Assembly (NCBI GenBank): GCA_020050835.1
Contig: JAGVKB010000091.1
Location: 1 to 57,900, forward strand
Source: Candidatus Obscuribacterales bacterium
Lineage (GTDB): Bacteria; Cyanobacteriota; Vampirovibrionia; Obscuribacterales; Obscuribacteraceae
Direction of reading: 5' to 3'
DNA: 57,900 nt
Shown here piece by piece: positions 28,140 to 54,179 of the stretch (the stretch's first letter is position 1; each line of letters begins with the position of its first letter). A program made the translations under genes and the position numbers. The notes under the pieces are model-generated. The model saw only the letters and a list, made by a program, of their open reading frames with translations, had not been told where the DNA came from and ran no database searches.

Positions 28140-28982
28140 CTATTTCAGTAAGGACAAGGACTTCTGTCTGGACGTTGATCGTTGAATGGCTGGCGCAGTC
28201 TCGATTAGAGTCGCCCCGACCAGGCTTGGCTCGTAAATGGAGTATCTCGACTCCTCGTGCATCCAATCAACTAGCCCGAACAGTTTCATGAATCGGATCA
28301 CAAGCCAAGATAAATCAATTTCGAACGGTCGGAAGCCGCTGCGTGCTGAGCCTGGAAATGCATGATGATTGTTGTGCCAACCCTCACCTGCCGTCAATAA
28401 AGCAACCCACCATACATTAGCGCTGTCGTCGTTAGTTGGGTAATTTTTGTATCCCAGTTTTGGAAGATGGCACACAACATTCAAGAGCAGCGGGACTTGC
28501 TGCACTATTAATGCTGCTGCCAGACTACCCAGTGCGATGGGCCAACCAAAGCAAAGCAGCAGTATGCCTCTGAATGAAAACCCAATCGCTGAATTGAGCA
28601 GGTGTGCGTTTTTCCACCTTCCATCTTGCTCGAGGAAGCGGTAGATCGGATCTTTGACTAAATCTTTGGCTTGCAACATGGGATCGAGGTGAGCTGGATA
28701 ACGCTTTTTGAAGAACCAGCCAAAGTAGGCATGTTTCCAACCGTGACGCGGTGAATGTGGATCTAGTTCCTGATCTGTATTGCGATGATGAGCACGATGC
28801 ATGGTTGCCCACCAGATTGGCGAACCTTCAAAAGCCAGATAACCTCCGAAAACCCAAAAATATTCCAGTAGTTTTGGACAACGGAAGGAACGGTGTGCGA
28901 GCAAGCGGTGATAACCGATTGTCACGCCCATTATGTGCCACAGATAGGAAAGGATAAATGTTGCTAGAAATGCAATTAGCAT
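28140..28982 (-). CDS. Acyl-CoA/acyl-lipid delta-9 fatty acid desaturase
   Basis: The protein has 280 residues. ATG 28982 with AGGAG at 5 bases is preferred to an in-frame TTG at 29018. A di-iron membrane enzyme that places a double bond in fatty acyl chains. Three histidine boxes are visible: HRLLAHRSF (HxxxxH), HRAHH (HxxHH) and HNNHHAFPGSAR (HxxHH). Four hydrophobic segments flank them. It is slightly shorter than typical DesC (about 300). The remaining electron-transfer partner must be elsewhere. It could control membrane fluidity, fitting with the neighbouring RRM proteins, which are cold-induced in cyanobacteria (inference). Confidence 0.93.
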   Translation of the reverse strand: MLIAFLATFILSYLWHIMGVTIGYHRLLAHRSFRCPKLLEYFWVFGGYLAFEGSPIWWATMHRAHHRNTDQELDPHSPRHGWKHAYFGWFFKKRYPAHLDPMLQAKDLVKDPIYRFLEQDGRWKNAHLLNSAIGFSFRGILLLCFGWPIALGSLAAALIVQQVPLLLNVVCHLPKLGYKNYPTNDDSANVWWVALLTAGEGWHNNHHAFPGSARSGFRPFEIDLSWLVIRFMKLFGLVDWMHEESRYSIYEPSLVGATLIETAPAIQRSTSRQKSLSLLK

Positions 28983-29589
28983 AGAACTCCTGAACTCGTG
29001 CTGTCCTCGAGTTTCCAATCCACAACGGAAACAGATATGTCAGGATTTGCTGGCTCAGCACGCAGCTCCTAGCTGACTACTGTAAAAGTGTGTCCGACGA
29101 AATCCACAACTATTGAAGGGCTCTATTATTACATTAATCCGTATCTCAGTATATATGCATTGTATTGTTGAATTGCAGGTAAAGCCCCAGGGGCTGAGCT
29201 TTCGCTCGGACGGAAGTGAGGACATGTGCTTCGGAAAAGTAGCCTGAACACCTGAAGAATAGCTATTACCCGTGGCAATCTTCGATTTCTTCAGTTCGCT
29301 TAAAGTAATGTGTCATAATGGAAATACTCGACAGGCTTGGATTTTCCTCGGACATCTCCTTTTCAGTCGCACAGCCAGGAGTACCTTTGGGTGCCGCGCC
29401 AAGAAAATGGAAGCAGCGTTCCTGGTAAATCCGGAATTGAAGCAGCAATGTAGGATCCGTCATTGTCCCAAGGTACTTGGATTCGTCCTTTAGTACCGTA
29501 CGAGCACTACCGCGCGGTTTCGGCGGTTAGGGTTGCCGACTTCAAATCGGCAGACGGCTTTATGAAAGTAATGAAACGAAGATCAGCAT
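28983..29589. other. 607-base divergent region with structured leader of the RRM gene
   Basis: No protein gene is supported. Short inverted repeats occur on the plus strand: AGCCCC-A-GGGGCT (29183-29195) directly followed by GAGC-TTTC-GCTC (29196-29207) and then GGACGGAAGT, a string also found in glnA-type glutamine riboswitches; the other glnA-specific strings are not visible. Nearer the gene lie the palindrome ACCGCGCGGT (about 29509-29518) and the hairpin TGCCGA/TCGGCA (29534-29552). A promoter-like CATAAT occurs near 29317. A long regulated 5' leader is plausible. Confidence 0.35.
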
Positions 29590-39000: not shown

Positions 39001-39299
39001 TTGGGGACCGAATCGTTTCTTCGCGAACTCACTGACCGATTTCGATCGCCTTGACCTTGAATCAGTCTGAGATTCTGCCCGCGGTCGAACAACAGTGCAG
39101 CCGCTTGGGCGTCAAGAGTGAGTCGTTATCCGACATCAGAGGTCCAGCTCAGAATCGGTTAGCACTGCGTCATTGCTACAGAACTGTTATGATGACAATA
39201 GATGAGGCTGCTTAGCGCGTCACCAGTCTTGAACTATTGGTTAAAGCTGTCGTTTATTGCTCCTGGTCTGGTAGTTACCAATTGCCTGTAGTGATTTCA

Positions 39300-39722
39300 A
39301 TGGTTACTTTATTGACTTTGCTAGAACATTCTGAAGCTAGAGATGTGTCAGCCAAACAACTTGCAGAGCATCATAGTACGCCTGCCAGCACTTTGAGTCA
39401 GCTAGCAAAATGTTGCGATGTGGCGGTACGCATGGCGGTCGCCGACAATCGAAACACCTCAGTTGATACCCTCATGCGCCTTACTGCCGACACGAACGCG
39501 GATCTCAGGTACGGTGTCGCAGAGAATCACAATATTCATCAATCGGTGCTGCTTGCTCTGCTTGAAGATACTAATCCTTATGTAGCCCAAAGGGCAGGGA
39601 AAACTTTAGCGCGACTCGCTGTCAATTCCGCCTCATCGCGTCCTAAGCTGATCCTGTTGGTCGATGGGCATCGATTCAAACTGCCGGAGAATCAACTTAA
39701 CTGCCCCCGAACTCTCGTTTGA
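39300..39722 (+). CDS. LRV-type repeat protein (paralogue of the 53412 repeat region)
   Basis: The protein has 140 residues; ATG 39300 (a TTG at 39237 would add an unlikely extension; ribosome site weak). Four units of about 24 residues: ...STPASTLSQLAKCCDVAVRMAVADNRNT..., DTLMRLTADTNADLRYGVAENHNI..., LLALLEDTNPYVAQRAGKTLARL. The pattern 'A-N-x-x-T-x-x-x-L-x-x-L-x-x-D-x-x-x-x-V-R-x-x-V-A' is the leucine-rich-repeat variant (LRV), which forms a helical solenoid for protein or nucleic-acid contacts. It matches the middle part of 53412-54179. Function unknown. Confidence 0.75.
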   Translation: MVTLLTLLEHSEARDVSAKQLAEHHSTPASTLSQLAKCCDVAVRMAVADNRNTSVDTLMRLTADTNADLRYGVAENHNIHQSVLLALLEDTNPYVAQRAGKTLARLAVNSASSRPKLILLVDGHRFKLPENQLNCPRTLV

Positions 39723-41294: not shown

Positions 41295-42434
41295 CTATGA
41301 TCCAAGCGCTGCAAACGGCTCTGCAGTTTTCGCTAAAAAGGCATTGATACGCGGTGACTGGGCGATGAAACGTTCCTGACAGATACGTACAGTATCGAGC
41401 GTTGCATCTCTCAATTCAAGCCCGGTAGCGCGAAGATTATCCAGAGCAGTAGTTTGAAACCGCCAATGATGTCCGGCAATATCCATATTGACCGACGTGA
41501 ACTCCAACCACATCCTCATCCGGCGATCGAGCTCCTGGAGCGGAACTTCGCTGAGGCGATCGTAGTAATGAACTTCGCATGGTCGACTCCAACCCTCCAG
41601 CCAGCAACTGGTGATGTCCCGCACTGTTGGCAGTGTTTCGTGTCGGGATACCAGATGAATGATCGAGTCGTCAGGAAGGTAGTGGTAGGCAGCTAGAAAT
41701 GCAGTCGTAAAAGCGTCCTGGTGAATGATAGGAAGTTTTACTGCTGGTGCGATGAGATGCATCACTGGTCTGTAGCGATCGGATAGAAACTTCTCAAAGG
41801 CCGACCAGAGCTGGTAGAGTCCATATGGTCTTCCGGAATATCGTCCACTGCGACTGTCGCCAACCACCACACTCGGTCTGATGATCAGGAATGGAAGCGA
41901 GCTACTGGATACTAACGCCTCCGCCTCGCGCTTCGAACGGGTGTATTCGGTTGGATCTGATTCGGGCGAAGGGTGCAGTGTTTCGCAGACAAGCTTGTTA
42001 GTGAAGCCGCTGCTGAATGCTGTGGATAGATAGACAAACCGCCTGACATGCAAGCGTTGTCCTAATCTAATTAGCTCGGTCGTCAGATCGATATTACCTT
42101 CCTTAAGACTCTCTAGATCGTAATATTCGACCGATCCTGCGCAATGGATCACTTCGTTTACTGCCAGCTTGCAGAGCGCTGGATACAAGTTGTGAATATC
42201 ATCATTGCGTGGTAAATCAACTGTGATCAGCCGGTCGAAGTCAATGTCATCGGTGCGACGCTCCGCATTCAATTCCAATGTAAGCTTCTTCAGCACACTT
42301 TCGCGGGTATGTCCGTTCCGAATCGGAGCGACTATTCGGCGGCACCCTCCAGAAAGCAAGGCAGCAGCGACAAGCCCTCCGAGATTTCCACTGACTCCAG
42401 TCAACAGTATGCTGCCGTTCTCTGAACCGTTCAT
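41295..42434 (-). CDS. NAD(P)-dependent reductase of the thioester-reductase/FAR type (extended SDR)
   Basis: The protein has 379 residues; ATG 42434 lies two bases after the upstream stop codon, with its ribosome site (GGGAG) inside that gene, so it is translationally coupled. Dinucleotide-binding GVSGNLGG at residues about 12-19; active-site elements STAFSSGF (Ser/Thr) and Tyr-x3-Lys in EYTRSKREAEAL. IIRPSVVVGDSRSG is characteristic of NAD_binding_4 (male-sterility) reductases such as fatty acyl-CoA reductases and carboxylic-acid-reductase R domains. The C-terminal 100 residues differ from the Rossmann core. Expected reaction: acyl thioester to aldehyde (or alcohol) with NAD(P)H. Third gene of the operon. 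Confidence 0.8.
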   Translation of the reverse strand: MNGSENGSILLTGVSGNLGGLVAAALLSGGCRRIVAPIRNGHTRESVLKKLTLELNAERRTDDIDFDRLITVDLPRNDDIHNLYPALCKLAVNEVIHCAGSVEYYDLESLKEGNIDLTTELIRLGQRLHVRRFVYLSTAFSSGFTNKLVCETLHPSPESDPTEYTRSKREAEALVSSSSLPFLIIRPSVVVGDSRSGRYSGRPYGLYQLWSAFEKFLSDRYRPVMHLIAPAVKLPIIHQDAFTTAFLAAYHYLPDDSIIHLVSRHETLPTVRDITSCWLEGWSRPCEVHYYDRLSEVPLQELDRRMRMWLEFTSVNMDIAGHHWRFQTTALDNLRATGLELRDATLDTVRICQERFIAQSPRINAFLAKTAEPFAALGS

Positions 42435-42436
42435 TG

Positions 42437-43078
42437 CTACACTCCCATCAAGGCACCGGTCAGAAAGCCGACAAGTTTGCGTCTATCCAGTCCCAGCTCT
42501 GTACATGCCGGGATGAAGTCTGCCGCGAATTCTCCCATGAGATCTGCAAAGCAAATGCCGAAGCGCGCAGAAAAGTGCTGATCGAGTCCGACACCCAAAG
42601 TGTCGAGCTGCCTGAGCACCGGTCTAGATACAATCATCAATGTTTGAAATAGGCTCTCTCCAGTGCCGATCTCTTCCGCAATAAGTGCGGGAATCTTCTT
42701 GCTGATAGTCTGGCTTGCAGCCAGTCCATCAGCACACAGGGTTCGGGTACTCGAGCTGACTAGCTCACTCTGTCCGAATGATTGATAAATTGTTTGACCT
42801 AAAAGCTCTAGGAGCAATCCCTGGACTATCAGTGTGTGAACCGCATCACTGCCAGTGGCACCGGCTACAAGATCGTTTACCGGCACAGCAAGTTCTGCTT
42901 CATCCAGTACCTCATCAGAAGGCACCTGCGAGCTGAGTAAGGCCACCAATGCCCTTTTCTCCTCGCCAGCCAGAGTCGGCACGTACAATTCATACTGCCG
43001 CAGCGCAAGCGATTCAAAGTTTCGTAGGATCGCCCAGAGCAAGAGTTCACTTCTATCTATGCCGATAATTGCGCTCAT
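42437..43078 (-). CDS. Ligand-depleted ferritin-like paralogue of the ADO-like protein
   Basis: The protein has 213 residues; ATG 43078 with GAGG five bases before. Homology to the first gene's product is visible: TLIVQGLLLELLGQTIYQSF matches LIIVQGFIVESLAIATYESF, and the C-terminus FIPACTELGLDRRKLV matches the first protein's GYTQLLEKVGFEPRKAT. However, the positions of the iron ligands differ: E22 (kept), S50 and P53 (E and H lost), E91 (kept), E136 (kept), T139 (His lost). It cannot form the normal di-iron site and is probably a non-catalytic subunit. Second gene of the operon, 21 bases after gene 1. Confidence 0.75.
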   Translation of the reverse strand: MSAIIGIDRSELLLWAILRNFESLALRQYELYVPTLAGEEKRALVALLSSQVPSDEVLDEAELAVPVNDLVAGATGSDAVHTLIVQGLLLELLGQTIYQSFGQSELVSSSTRTLCADGLAASQTISKKIPALIAEEIGTGESLFQTLMIVSRPVLRQLDTLGVGLDQHFSARFGICFADLMGEFAADFIPACTELGLDRRKLVGFLTGALMGV

Positions 43079-43099
43079 GAAGCCTCGTTGATTAGCAGC

Positions 43100-43843
43100 C
43101 TATTTGGTCTTCTCACCACGCCGATACTTGCGAACTAGTGGCATGAACATGCCCACGACATGCTTCGTCGCCTTCCTGGGTTCGAATCCAACTTTCTCCA
43201 GTAGCTGAGTATAACCATCCATCATTGCCCCAGCACAGTCAGCCCCGGATAGCCCAATTTTGTCGAGATACTCTGCTATGTTCATCATGGTGCCGCCGAT
43301 GCAATCGATACCTTGAATGTTTACCCGCTCGGCCAACAGCCTGAAATCCTCCTCAGCATCAAAATAGCGTAGCCGGAGATAACGAAGTACCCAATCAACG
43401 TGATACAACTCTTCCGTGAGCGCCTTTTTGAACACCTCGTGAGTACCAGGATACTTGCCGGCAACCGAGAGAAACGACTCATAAGTAGCTATTGCCAGGC
43501 TTTCCACGATGAACCCCTGGACAATTATCAACGCTTCGAAATTCCTTTTACGATAGTGTTCCTCGACCTGGAATATAAGATAACCAAGCTCATTGTCGGC
43601 AAATGCTTTGTCCGGAACAATTCCGTTTGCACGACTGGCCTCGCTGAACCACGCACCGTGTTGTGCTTCCATTCTGGCGAATTTTTTGAGTAGCGGAGCG
43701 AATTCTTCCTTGAGCTCGGCCATGAGTAAATAAATCTTGGACGCAATTTTTTCACCAAAAATTGCCAGTCCCATCAGCCTGTCGATCGATAGTTGCTCGC
43801 TAGGTGATCGTGGTGCAAAAGTTGAGTTCAAAGCAACGTCCAT
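43100..43843 (-). CDS. ADO-like ferritin-fold di-iron protein
   Basis: The protein has 247 residues; ATG 43843 with GGAG at 6 bases. Six candidate Fe ligands: E31, E59-x2-H62 (ARMEAQH), E114 (FIVES), E145-x2-H148 (EELYH). Spacings are 28, 3, 52, 31 and 3. In cyanobacterial aldehyde-deformylating oxygenase they are E32, E60, H63, E115, E144, H147 (28, 3, 52, 29, 3). The sequence IIVQGFIVESLAIATY resembles the ADO helix LLIQSLIIECFAIAAY, and length also fits. ADO converts fatty aldehyde to alkane (or alkene) plus formate with O2. The orthodox partner, acyl-ACP reductase, is replaced here by the FAR-like gene. Ligand pattern firm; the ADO reaction itself is inference. Confidence 0.72.
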   Translation of the reverse strand: MDVALNSTFAPRSPSEQLSIDRLMGLAIFGEKIASKIYLLMAELKEEFAPLLKKFARMEAQHGAWFSEASRANGIVPDKAFADNELGYLIFQVEEHYRKRNFEALIIVQGFIVESLAIATYESFLSVAGKYPGTHEVFKKALTEELYHVDWVLRYLRLRYFDAEEDFRLLAERVNIQGIDCIGGTMMNIAEYLDKIGLSGADCAGAMMDGYTQLLEKVGFEPRKATKHVVGMFMPLVRKYRRGEKTK

Positions 43844-47643: not shown

Positions 47644-49200
47644 TTATGCCACTTCAGCCTGTTGCTGCTTCTCCTGCAGTTCTCCCTCGACCAGACGAAG
47701 GCGTGGAACCATCACCTCTGCAGTGTAGCGAATAAAGTGATAGCCAGTAATGGCTCGGCACAGTGCAAACAGCCACTTATCGGGGTGATTCCGCATGACC
47801 CATAACATGAAGCGCCAGTATTCTCCGCGATTTCGGTCTACAAATCCCAACCAGAGTAAGGCTCCGATCAATGGGAATAAAAATTTGAGCCTGGTTTTGA
47901 GATTCAGTCGGCCGAAAGTCTGATTGCGAGTTCCTTTTAGAGAGCCAATCAGATCGTAGAGGCGAGCGAAAAAGTTGGCTGGAGAATAGAGTGTGGAAAG
48001 CACAGTCCGATAGCCGCGAATTAGAGTGAGCGGTGCCATATGAGTCACAAAGTTGGGCAGGTCAAGGTTGTCTCCCGTAAATTCCGTAAGCAGTCGCCCC
48101 TCAGTTTTGAGCCGCAGCCATAACTGAGTACTCGGCATTGCATTCAAAGTTCCGACCATAGCCATGGGAATCCTAGCTGAGCTAATGAACTGTATCTGGC
48201 GTTCGAAAATGTCCTCTTCATCGTTATCGAATCCAATGATGAAGCCAGCCATTACCTCAATACCATGCTGCTGAATAGCATGAACTTTACTAAGCATGTC
48301 ACCATGCATATTCTGATACTTGTGGGTTTCACGGAGGCTTTCCAACGAGGGGCTCTCTATGCCGACGAACACTGAATGGAAGCCGGCCTTTCCCATCAAT
48401 TCAAGGAGCTCGTGATCGTCGGCAAGATTCAAACTGGCCTCGGTGTAAAGCCAGAATGGGTACTCATGATTCTCCATCCACTTGATCAGTTCAGGAAGCA
48501 TTAGCTTGACGTCACGCTTGTTGCCTATGAAATTGTCATCCACCAAGAACACTTCACCGCGGAATCCCAAATTGTATATACTCTGCAATTCTTCTAGTAT
48601 CTGCTTGGGTTTTTTCGTGCGCGGCTTTTTGCCGTAAAGTGCCGTGATATCACAGAACTCACATGCAAAGGGGCAGCCGCGAGAGAATTGGACGCACATG
48701 TGTGTGTAAGCATCAATCTCCAGCAAGTCAAAACGTGGTACCGGTGTCTGGGTCACGTCCGGCTTTTCACCGCTAGCCGTATACACTCGCTGGGGGTTGC
48801 CAGCTACAAAGTCCTTTAGAAACAGCGGCAACGTAATCTCGGCTTCATCTTGCAGCAAGTAAGTTGCTGCTGCGAATTTTTCCGGGCTTGAGGTTGCGTC
48901 CGGTCCGCCAACTACGGTTGGAACACCAGCCTGCCCACACCGATTAATGGTTTCCATCATCGATCGGTGTTGAATTCCCATACCGCTGAGCAGCGCCAGA
49001 TCAGCCCACTCGATATCTGTTTGAGAAAGCTCACCAATATTCAAATCTACCAGTCGCAGATTCCAATCCGGCGGACACAAGGCGGCTACAGTCAGTAACC
49101 CCAATGGTGGCATGACAGCACGTTTGCCAAGCAGCCTAACTGAATACTGCGCGCCCCAGTAGGTGAGCGGAATTTGTGGCCAAATTAACAACGCATTCAT
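47644..49200 (-). CDS. B12-binding-domain radical SAM protein (DUF4070 type)
   Basis: The protein has 518 residues; ATG 49200 with AGGAG at 8 bases. N-terminal B12-binding-like domain (PPLGLLTVAALCPPDW, DLALLSGMGIQHRS, PTVVGGPDATSS). Radical SAM domain with CPFACEFCDITALYG (Cys-x3-Cys-x2-Cys for the 4Fe-4S cluster). Further features are FLVDDNFIGNKRDVK and GFIIGFDNDEEDIF. The C-terminal 130 residues match the DUF4070 extension, common in large B12-radical enzymes. In related enzymes (e.g. hopanoid C-2 methylase HpnP) the group methylates unactivated carbon. The substrate here is unknown. Standing alone downstream of 49.2 kb. Confidence 0.9.
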   Translation of the reverse strand: MNALLIWPQIPLTYWGAQYSVRLLGKRAVMPPLGLLTVAALCPPDWNLRLVDLNIGELSQTDIEWADLALLSGMGIQHRSMMETINRCGQAGVPTVVGGPDATSSPEKFAAATYLLQDEAEITLPLFLKDFVAGNPQRVYTASGEKPDVTQTPVPRFDLLEIDAYTHMCVQFSRGCPFACEFCDITALYGKKPRTKKPKQILEELQSIYNLGFRGEVFLVDDNFIGNKRDVKLMLPELIKWMENHEYPFWLYTEASLNLADDHELLELMGKAGFHSVFVGIESPSLESLRETHKYQNMHGDMLSKVHAIQQHGIEVMAGFIIGFDNDEEDIFERQIQFISSARIPMAMVGTLNAMPSTQLWLRLKTEGRLLTEFTGDNLDLPNFVTHMAPLTLIRGYRTVLSTLYSPANFFARLYDLIGSLKGTRNQTFGRLNLKTRLKFLFPLIGALLWLGFVDRNRGEYWRFMLWVMRNHPDKWLFALCRAITGYHFIRYTAEVMVPRLRLVEGELQEKQQQAEVA

Positions 49201-53411: not shown

Positions 53412-54179
53412 CTACCCCTTCTGCTCGGCTATGATGATATTGGCTCGGATTCCTATTGTGACAGCTTCATCAAGCTTACTCTGCCCGACCAGCGCTGCTG
53501 CTAGCTTGTATAAAGCAAGACCTACTTCCTTGTGCTCAGCGCCAAGCAATCCTTCTAGCCCTTGAATCAGCTTTCTGTAGAAATCTTCGGCCTCAACAAA
53601 CTGCTCTTGTATCAGCATTTCATCAGCCCGTTGCGATACACTCTTCAAGTTATCCAGAGTGTTTTGTGCCAGTGCGAGCACAAATGGATTGTCATCATGC
53701 GCCAGTGATCTCAGATCTTCCACAGCGGTATTCGCATTTTCAGCCATTCGATATCGCACTTCAGCGTTCTCATCACTGACAAGTAACTGCCTCGTGTCAT
53801 TCGACATATTTGTGTTTTCTGTAACTGCAGCGCGGACTTCAAAAGATTCGTGGTTGGATAGTCGTGCTAGAGTACTGGCATCCGTATTGGCATTTTTAGC
53901 CACTCGCTCCGCTACACCAGGATGCTGGCTGTTGGCCAACTTGTCCAGCTCTGATGCAGATGTGTTTGGATGAGACGCTTGCCTGCGCTCCGCTTGACCA
54001 GGCTTTTCATCGCCAATATTTGAGTTTGTGTTCGTTGTCGACATCTTAAATACGTCCAGCTTAGTAGAATAAACCTGTGATTTCATTGTTACGCGGTCAT
54101 CAGCGGTCAATTTACCGCATTTTGCTTTGAAGTTTCCTCGAAGTTGTTTCCAGTTACCACTAATAACATTCCACTTCAT
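53412..54179 (-). CDS. CsbD-head / LRV / TPR fusion protein
   Basis: The protein has 255 residues from ATG 54179 (GAGG 12 bases before). Residues 1-34 (WNVISGNWKQLRGNFKAKCG, LTADD) match the first half of CsbD, then the match ends. After about 10 unlike residues a new Met at 46 (nt 54044) starts an Asn/Thr-rich segment. LRV repeats follow: NTSASELDKLANSQHPGV, NTDASTLARLSNHESFEVR, MSNDTRQLLVSDENAEVR, NTAVEDLRSLAHDDNPFV. The C-terminal 80 residues are TPR-like (AEDFYRKLIQGLEGLLG, ALYKLAAALVGQSKLDEA). It is uncertain whether the CsbD head is translated or the real start is 54044. Confidence 0.7.
   Translation of the reverse strand: MKWNVISGNWKQLRGNFKAKCGKLTADDRVTMKSQVYSTKLDVFKMSTTNTNSNIGDEKPGQAERRQASHPNTSASELDKLANSQHPGVAERVAKNANTDASTLARLSNHESFEVRAAVTENTNMSNDTRQLLVSDENAEVRYRMAENANTAVEDLRSLAHDDNPFVLALAQNTLDNLKSVSQRADEMLIQEQFVEAEDFYRKLIQGLEGLLGAEHKEVGLALYKLAAALVGQSKLDEAVTIGIRANIIIAEQKG

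Follow-up and report, generated by a model that had tools for sequence, protein, structure and literature searches.

Alkane synthesis by aldehyde-deformylating oxygenase (ADO; PF11266, TIGR04059) is regarded as characteristic of photosynthetic cyanobacteria, in which acyl-ACP reductase (AAR) is the fixed partner of the oxygenase. Engineered pathways that join carboxylic acid reductase (CAR) to ADO exist, and no natural pairing of ADO with a CAR or a reductase (R) domain was found in the literature searched. One review (PMC7744569) mentions ADO as well as thioester reductase, but in passages that have no connection with each other. A passage of PMC9743570 describes three acidic residues of helix 7 in canonical ADO, E197, E201, and D202 (NpADO numbering), as holding AAR, and reports that a TeADO E201A mutant did not bind it, while a passage of PMC5356278 reports lowered activity upon mutation of Q110 and Y122 in SeADO and a loss of 91% of kcat in the Arg62 to Ala mutant. 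The locus described here lies on a stretch of 57,900 nucleotides (the window; contig JAGVKB010000091.1, positions 1 to 57,900), one of the contigs of a 7.0-Mb, 95.7% complete assembly (GCA_020050835.1) whose host appears to be a cyanobacteriotan that does not photosynthesise and most likely belongs to the Obscuribacterales. It consists of three adjoining genes, and our sequence evidence points strongly to a putative AAR-independent operon of an ADO-family protein, its dead ADO twin, and a reductase. We give a probability of about 0.4 to the reading that this operon encodes an AAR-independent, two-step module for hydrocarbon formation or aldehyde oxidation, with one catalytic and one dead ADO-fold subunit. 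The three genes are as follows:

43100..43843, minus strand: gene 1, ADO-family (PF11266) di-iron protein, 247 aa
42437..43078, minus strand: gene 2, predicted metal-less ADO-fold paralogue, 213 aa
41295..42434, minus strand: gene 3, short-chain dehydrogenase/reductase (SDR) of the NAD_binding_4, thioester-reductase-like type, 379 aa

The positions of the open reading frames (ORFs) bore out the layout given in the initial annotation, with the order 1-2-3 and gaps of 21 bases between genes 1 and 2 and of 2 bases between genes 2 and 3. The locus shares with cyanobacterial ADO the fold, the six di-iron ligands, the equivalents of Q110 and Y122, an aerobic host, and clustering with a reductase, whereas it misses the equivalog cut-off, has lost the AAR-docking acids and Arg62, has rebuilt C-terminal helices, and belongs to a non-photosynthetic class. 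As in the AAR-ADO pathway, a reductase adjoins a di-iron protein of the deformylating-oxygenase family, but an NAD_binding_4 SDR takes the place of AAR and an extra, apparently dead ADO-fold protein lies in between. Haem-copper oxidase subunit I genes occurred in five of the six genomes that carry the operon (the sixth, G013, is 71% complete), which is consistent with aerobic life.

Gene 1 is an ADO-family protein, although it is no close orthologue of canonical ADO. Its sequence matched PF11266 over residues 21-227 with 61.9 bits (gathering cut-off, 28; E 1e-16), all five gene 1 proteins of the order passed this model (61.7-70.2 bits), and all six members of the gene 1 clade matched TIGR04059, with a best E of 5e-19. 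The top solved structure by sequence was an ADO (5ux2; E 2.5e-15), and both matches lie well beyond what chance would give. A structure search of the PDB with the predicted model of gene 1 (pLDDT 82.3; four other models reached 51-63) returned ADO in 26 of 26 chains at E <= 0.001, with a TM of about 0.9, and alignment of the model to 21 ADO entries gave Z 26.2-29.7 at 1.8-2.5 Å, the next match having a Z of 20.7. The ADO-like character originally proposed for gene 1 was thus upheld by both the profile search and the model. The same is true of the di-iron ligands E31, E59, H62, E114, E145, and H148, whose spacing of 28-3-52-31-3 (canonical, 28-3-52-29-3) reflects two residues inserted before the last ExxH, a further four being inserted after it. 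The six ligands were identical in the alignment in 6/6 operon homologues, 25/25 canonical ADOs, and 3/3 second-copy ADOs, and Q109 and Y121, which correspond to SeADO Q110 and Y122, were kept in all six homologues. This alignment drew proteins from 28 of 29 ADO loci (L027 gave none), and three second copies were set apart to leave the 25 canonical ADOs; the loci were the best-scoring among the 177 matching of 386 genomes, a choice biased toward likeness to gene 1. In the unrooted tree, a very long branch of approximately 10 changes per column, with 100/100 support, separated all six clade members from 28 cyanobacterial sequences, which indicates a deep lineage rather than a gene recently borrowed from a photosynthetic cyanobacterium.

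Throughout the clade, the AAR-docking surface of canonical ADO was lost. The three docking columns, assigned by their E-x3-E-D pattern (residues 196, 200, and 201 in eleven 231-aa ADOs) and not via the NpADO sequence itself, held Ala, Gly, and Ala in 6/6 clade members and were acidic in 25, 24, and 25 of the 25 canonical ADOs. The model helix at this site (residues 200-218) was the most conserved helix of the clade, at 16 of 19 positions, and the copy in the window was 17% identical to canonical ADOs. Another partner may bind gene 1 at the former docking surface. AAR itself was absent at the level of its family cut-off, as had been claimed: the best match to TIGR04058 in the genome of the window (G000) reached 10.9 bits where 449.7 is required, and none of the six operon genomes held a protein over this cut-off, while four of four cyanobacterial controls were positive. 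In the AAR control search, 1 of 14 control genomes exceeded the cut-off.

The closest solved relative of gene 1, by sequence and by structure, is a second-copy ADO of Synechococcus (5UX2, 'Protein 19'; L008-L010), which was deposited as having ADO activity according to the entry title and whose sequence reads by eye like L009 and L010. The second copies share several losses with the clade, namely, the equivalents of E197 and E201 (3/3), D202 (2/3), and Arg62 (3/3), along with an Asp at Asn149, and L009 and L010 lack all three AAR-docking acids. They differ in other respects: their identity to gene 1 is 25-28%, their PF11266 scores are 198.7 and 212.1 bits compared with 61.9, and, unlike in the operon described here, no relative of gene 2 or gene 3 adjoins the second copies at L041 and L042. 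The genomes with these second copies, G430 and G356, each retain a first ADO adjacent to AAR. In the same two Synechococcus-like genomes, the second copy lies next or close to a protein matching the Rubrerythrin Pfam model (L041:8894-10593 and L042:7203-9645), which looks like the Mg-protoporphyrin cyclase AcsF.

Gene 2 is, by predicted fold and profile comparison, a metal-less ADO pseudoenzyme and probable paralogue of gene 1. Its description as a ferritin-like paralogue in the initial annotation therefore held at the level of fold and profile, but not at that of sequence families, as nothing in Pfam or NCBIfam matched it and the best Pfam E among its six homologues was 0.067. The AlphaFold2 model of gene 2 was of high score (pLDDT 92.1, pTM 0.88); the top six Foldseek matches were ADOs with a probability of 1.00 (best E 3.4e-3), and VIA-align ranked 21 ADO entries first (Z 17.2-19.5), followed by 3ez0 (15.8) and soluble methane monooxygenase (sMMO; 15.6). 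An initial, shallower comparison of the profiles of both genes was not convincing, with a probability of 9% only. The deeper comparison, hhalign of gene 2 against the full ADO alignment, was convincing, with a score of 40.8 (E 2.2e-5), while none of 30 column-shuffled decoys exceeded 20.2. In a joint alignment, E22, Y29, Q86, E91, and Y98 of gene 2 corresponded to E31, Y38, Q109, E114, and Y121 of gene 1 and were kept in 6/6 homologues. The equivalents of E59, H62, E145, and H148 were gone in 6/6, with a deletion spanning the first ExxH, as judged from the sequence alignment alone. The loss of both ExxH motifs means that the usual di-iron centre is not expected in gene 2. A precedent for such a dead partner is found in PaaA/PaaC of phenylacetyl-CoA monooxygenase, a catalytic di-iron subunit combined with a paralogue lacking the metal site. 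Chains of PaaA/PaaC match the gene 2 model, but the substrate, sequence, and extra subunits of that system differ, and the pairing of gene 1 with gene 2 is a prediction.

Gene 3 encodes an SDR that resembles thioester reductases and has an intact YxxxK motif. Its assignment to NAD_binding_4 (PF07993) was supported by 68.4 bits against a cut-off of 20.1, whereas the more specific thioester-reductase or fatty acyl reductase (FAR) label stood in part, FAR being one option. The best PDB matches by sequence were the R domains of MxaA (4u7w) and of a type I polyketide synthase (PKS; 8v1x). The glycines of GxxGxxG at 13-19 (G13, G16, and G19), T138, and Y164xxxK168 were invariant in 6/6 homologues; SDR reductases follow a T/S-Y-K catalytic motif rule, and the residues seen here are those that a working enzyme of this kind should have. 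R39, also invariant, would suit NADPH. With CAR and the R domains of nonribosomal peptide synthetases and PKSs (MxaA, AusA), gene 3 shares the Rossmann R-domain type, the T-Y-K residues, and the match to the thioester-reductase profile, but it differs as a stand-alone protein of 379 aa with no adenylation or carrier domains. The family models stop matching at approximately residue 215, apart from a weak match to DUF2826 under its cut-off.

The three genes travel together. Of 53 genomes from the order, five carried gene 1, and these five were also the ones with gene 2 (remaining matches had E > 0.1) and with orthologues of gene 3 (E < 1e-200); five further genomes gave gene 3 matches of at most 78 bits that were taken as general SDRs. 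No convincing match to gene 1 or gene 2 was seen in the other 48 genomes. The order 1-2-3 was kept in all four relatives, which share the family of the window's host, the adjacent genes overlapping or lying no more than 18 bases apart. A metagenome-assembled genome (MAG) of Eremiobacterota (L049; genome G438) held a sixth copy with this gene order, where gene 1 was 73-76% identical to that of the window and was present in 1 of 149 genomes of that phylum. Linkage in relatives, the lack of which would have counted against the initial annotation, was observed, and the occurrence of all three genes together in six genomes excludes chance or artefact. Gene 2 was found in 1 of the 386 phylum genomes sampled, that of the window; this sample did not include the remaining operon carriers from the order. 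Pairwise identities within the clade were 70-82% for gene 1, 40-63% for gene 2, and 47-71% for gene 3, and those of the three genes correlated at 0.76-0.79 across 15 pairs that are not independent.

The Eremiobacterota contig had a G+C content of 64%, matching the 64-65% of three other contigs of its bin, which argues against mis-binning; a fifth contig stretch, in which no G or C could be read, was excluded from this comparison. Third codon positions of the operon were 76-86% G+C in this genome compared with 52-53% in the window. Together with the G+C content of the contig, this indicates that a transfer, if there was one, was not recent. An origin in mobile elements was not supported either: no relative of gene 1 appeared in the plasmid or phage collections, and none was encoded by the 71 and 83 IMG/VR stretches that fit the peptide patterns of genes 1 and 2, respectively. 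No flanking gene common to all operon loci was seen by eye, with Pfam applied to some neighbours. Weak PF11266 matches elsewhere in the order (at most 28.5 bits; mostly frames of 390-414 aa covering approximately 70 model positions) were attributed to other proteins, including an unrelated-looking 392-aa frame in G048 that barely passed the model at 28.5 bits. One further match (L050; 34% over 58 aa) was dropped, its genome having no profile match.

Based on these results, alkane production is the likeliest single reading of the operon, at below even odds, and the substrates, products, electron donor, heterodimer of genes 1 and 2, and order of steps are given here as we infer them. Gene 3, as an NADPH-type SDR thioester reductase, would reduce an acyl thioester bound to ACP, CoA, or a carrier to the aldehyde. 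The di-iron oxygenase encoded by gene 1 would then activate O2, with electrons from a ferredoxin-type donor, and, judging from its family, would convert the aldehyde to a Cn-1 hydrocarbon and formate. Gene 2 would most likely be a partner of gene 1 without catalytic function, a dock for gene 3, or both, standing in for the acidic helix-7 surface where canonical ADO takes the aldehyde from AAR. The wider proposal goes further: a thioester reductase feeding a two-subunit ADO would constitute a further AAR-free, light-independent bacterial hydrocarbon pathway, housed in non-photosynthetic Cyanobacteriota, transferred whole between this lineage and Eremiobacterota in one direction or the other, and forming a deep sister branch to the cyanobacterial ADOs. 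We advance this proposal tentatively and consider it less likely than not.

Several observations weigh against the hydrocarbon module. Gene 1 scored 61.5 bits against the ADO equivalog TIGR04059 and did not reach the cut-off of 222.65, and its identity to cyanobacterial ADOs was 20-28% among the matches listed. Of 86 positions near-invariant among the canonical ADOs (n = 25), the six clade members all kept just 25, which comprise the start Met, the six ligands, Q109, and Y121 among others. The equivalent of SeADO Arg62 was Gln or Asn in 6/6 clade members and Arg or Lys in 25/25 canonical ADOs, and its loss speaks against alkane production, an argument tempered by the Asp found at this position in the 5ux2-type proteins L009 and L010. 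For gene 2, the Foldseek E-values were modest, none being under 0.001. For gene 3, the match to the thioester-reductase model TIGR01746 (64.8 bits) covered residues 9-203, the Rossmann part only, and fell far under the cut-off of 213.35, and Epimerase also matched with 45.7 bits. The Eremiobacterota genome encodes an AAR-like protein away from the operon (C55:41527-42390; 94.5 bits to TIGR04058, under the cut-off), and the operon MAGs are incomplete (71-96% where given), so that absences are not absolute.

The strongest alternative, to which we likewise assign somewhat less than an even chance, is that the module oxygenates another substrate. Gene 1, together with gene 2, would retain the ADO fold and the di-iron centre behind a rebuilt entrance and would hydroxylate or oxidise an acyl chain, an aldehyde (to an acid or alcohol), or some small secondary metabolite. 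Gene 3 would then be the reductase of a preceding or following step in the same lipid or metabolite route. The low identity to canonical ADO (0.05-0.17) of the four model helices at the C-terminus (164-241, dock included), where the clade conserves residues of its own (CAGAMMDGY), fits this possibility, as do the replaced Arg62, the equally good description of gene 3 as an extended SDR, and the matching of the gene 2 fold by PaaA/PaaC, toluene monooxygenase, R2-like ligand-binding oxidase (R2lox), and sMMO. However, the nearest characterised proteins were ADOs on every measure used, among them the divergent 5ux2, whose deposition states activity, the residues equivalent to Q110 and Y122 were retained, and the sole operon partner with recognisable chemistry is of an aldehyde-forming reductase type. 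That gene 1 is instead a rubrerythrin-like scavenger of peroxide or oxygen, with genes 2 and 3 linked for other reasons, appears improbable. The Rubrerythrin model PF02915 did exceed its own gathering score (33.1 vs. 22.8 bits), but it was confined to residues 25-148 and PF11266 scored nearly twice as high; the structural ranking placed R2lox and ribonucleotide reductase (R2-like) proteins after ADO, no rubredoxin domain was among the Pfam matches, and the linkage to an SDR was strict. Among the other ferritin-like families that might have matched better, COQ7 remained under its cut-off (20.1 bits) and MiaE was absent from the Pfam and NCBIfam matches of gene 1. A canonical ADO pathway that came from photosynthetic cyanobacteria and draws on an AAR encoded away from the operon would be in keeping with the shared phylum, the PF11266 membership, and the distant AAR-like protein in one of the six genomes, but it is highly improbable given that no AAR reached the cut-off in any of them, that the docking acids are gone in 6/6, and that the long, fully supported branch leaves no room for recent transfer.

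If the hydrocarbon module is real, it would represent a second way to feed a slow enzyme, through another reductase and a dead ADO twin in non-photosynthetic relatives of the known producers. Such a module would bear on the age of the ADO family and offer engineers a natural reductase-ADO pairing, and the dead twin raises the question of whether a metal-less partner increases turnover or delivers the aldehyde. The host had been described as a lineage not known for this chemistry, and no paper linking ADO with Obscuribacter, or alkane biosynthesis with Vampirovibrionia, was found in the literature searched; it would nevertheless not be remote from ADO holders, as a non-photosynthetic branch of the same phylum.

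Near the operon in the window, positions 47644-49200 encode a B12-binding radical SAM protein with DUF4070, whose top NCBIfam match was a P-methyltransferase subfamily, far short of the cut-off. Repeat-like proteins are encoded at 39237-39722 and 53412-54179 of the window, with kin near the operon in two other genomes (L037:2896-3327, HEAT/LRV by Pfam, and L039:6626-7480). Upstream of the operon in two relatives, very long divergent ORFs were present (L038:4903-13680 and L040:10344-17999), which resemble cyclic beta-glucan synthases by eye. In another relative, a fatty-acid desaturase gene (PF00487; L039:11061-11900) ends against the operon, and a 57% identical relative of this desaturase is encoded at 28140-29018 of the window, 12 kb from the operon.

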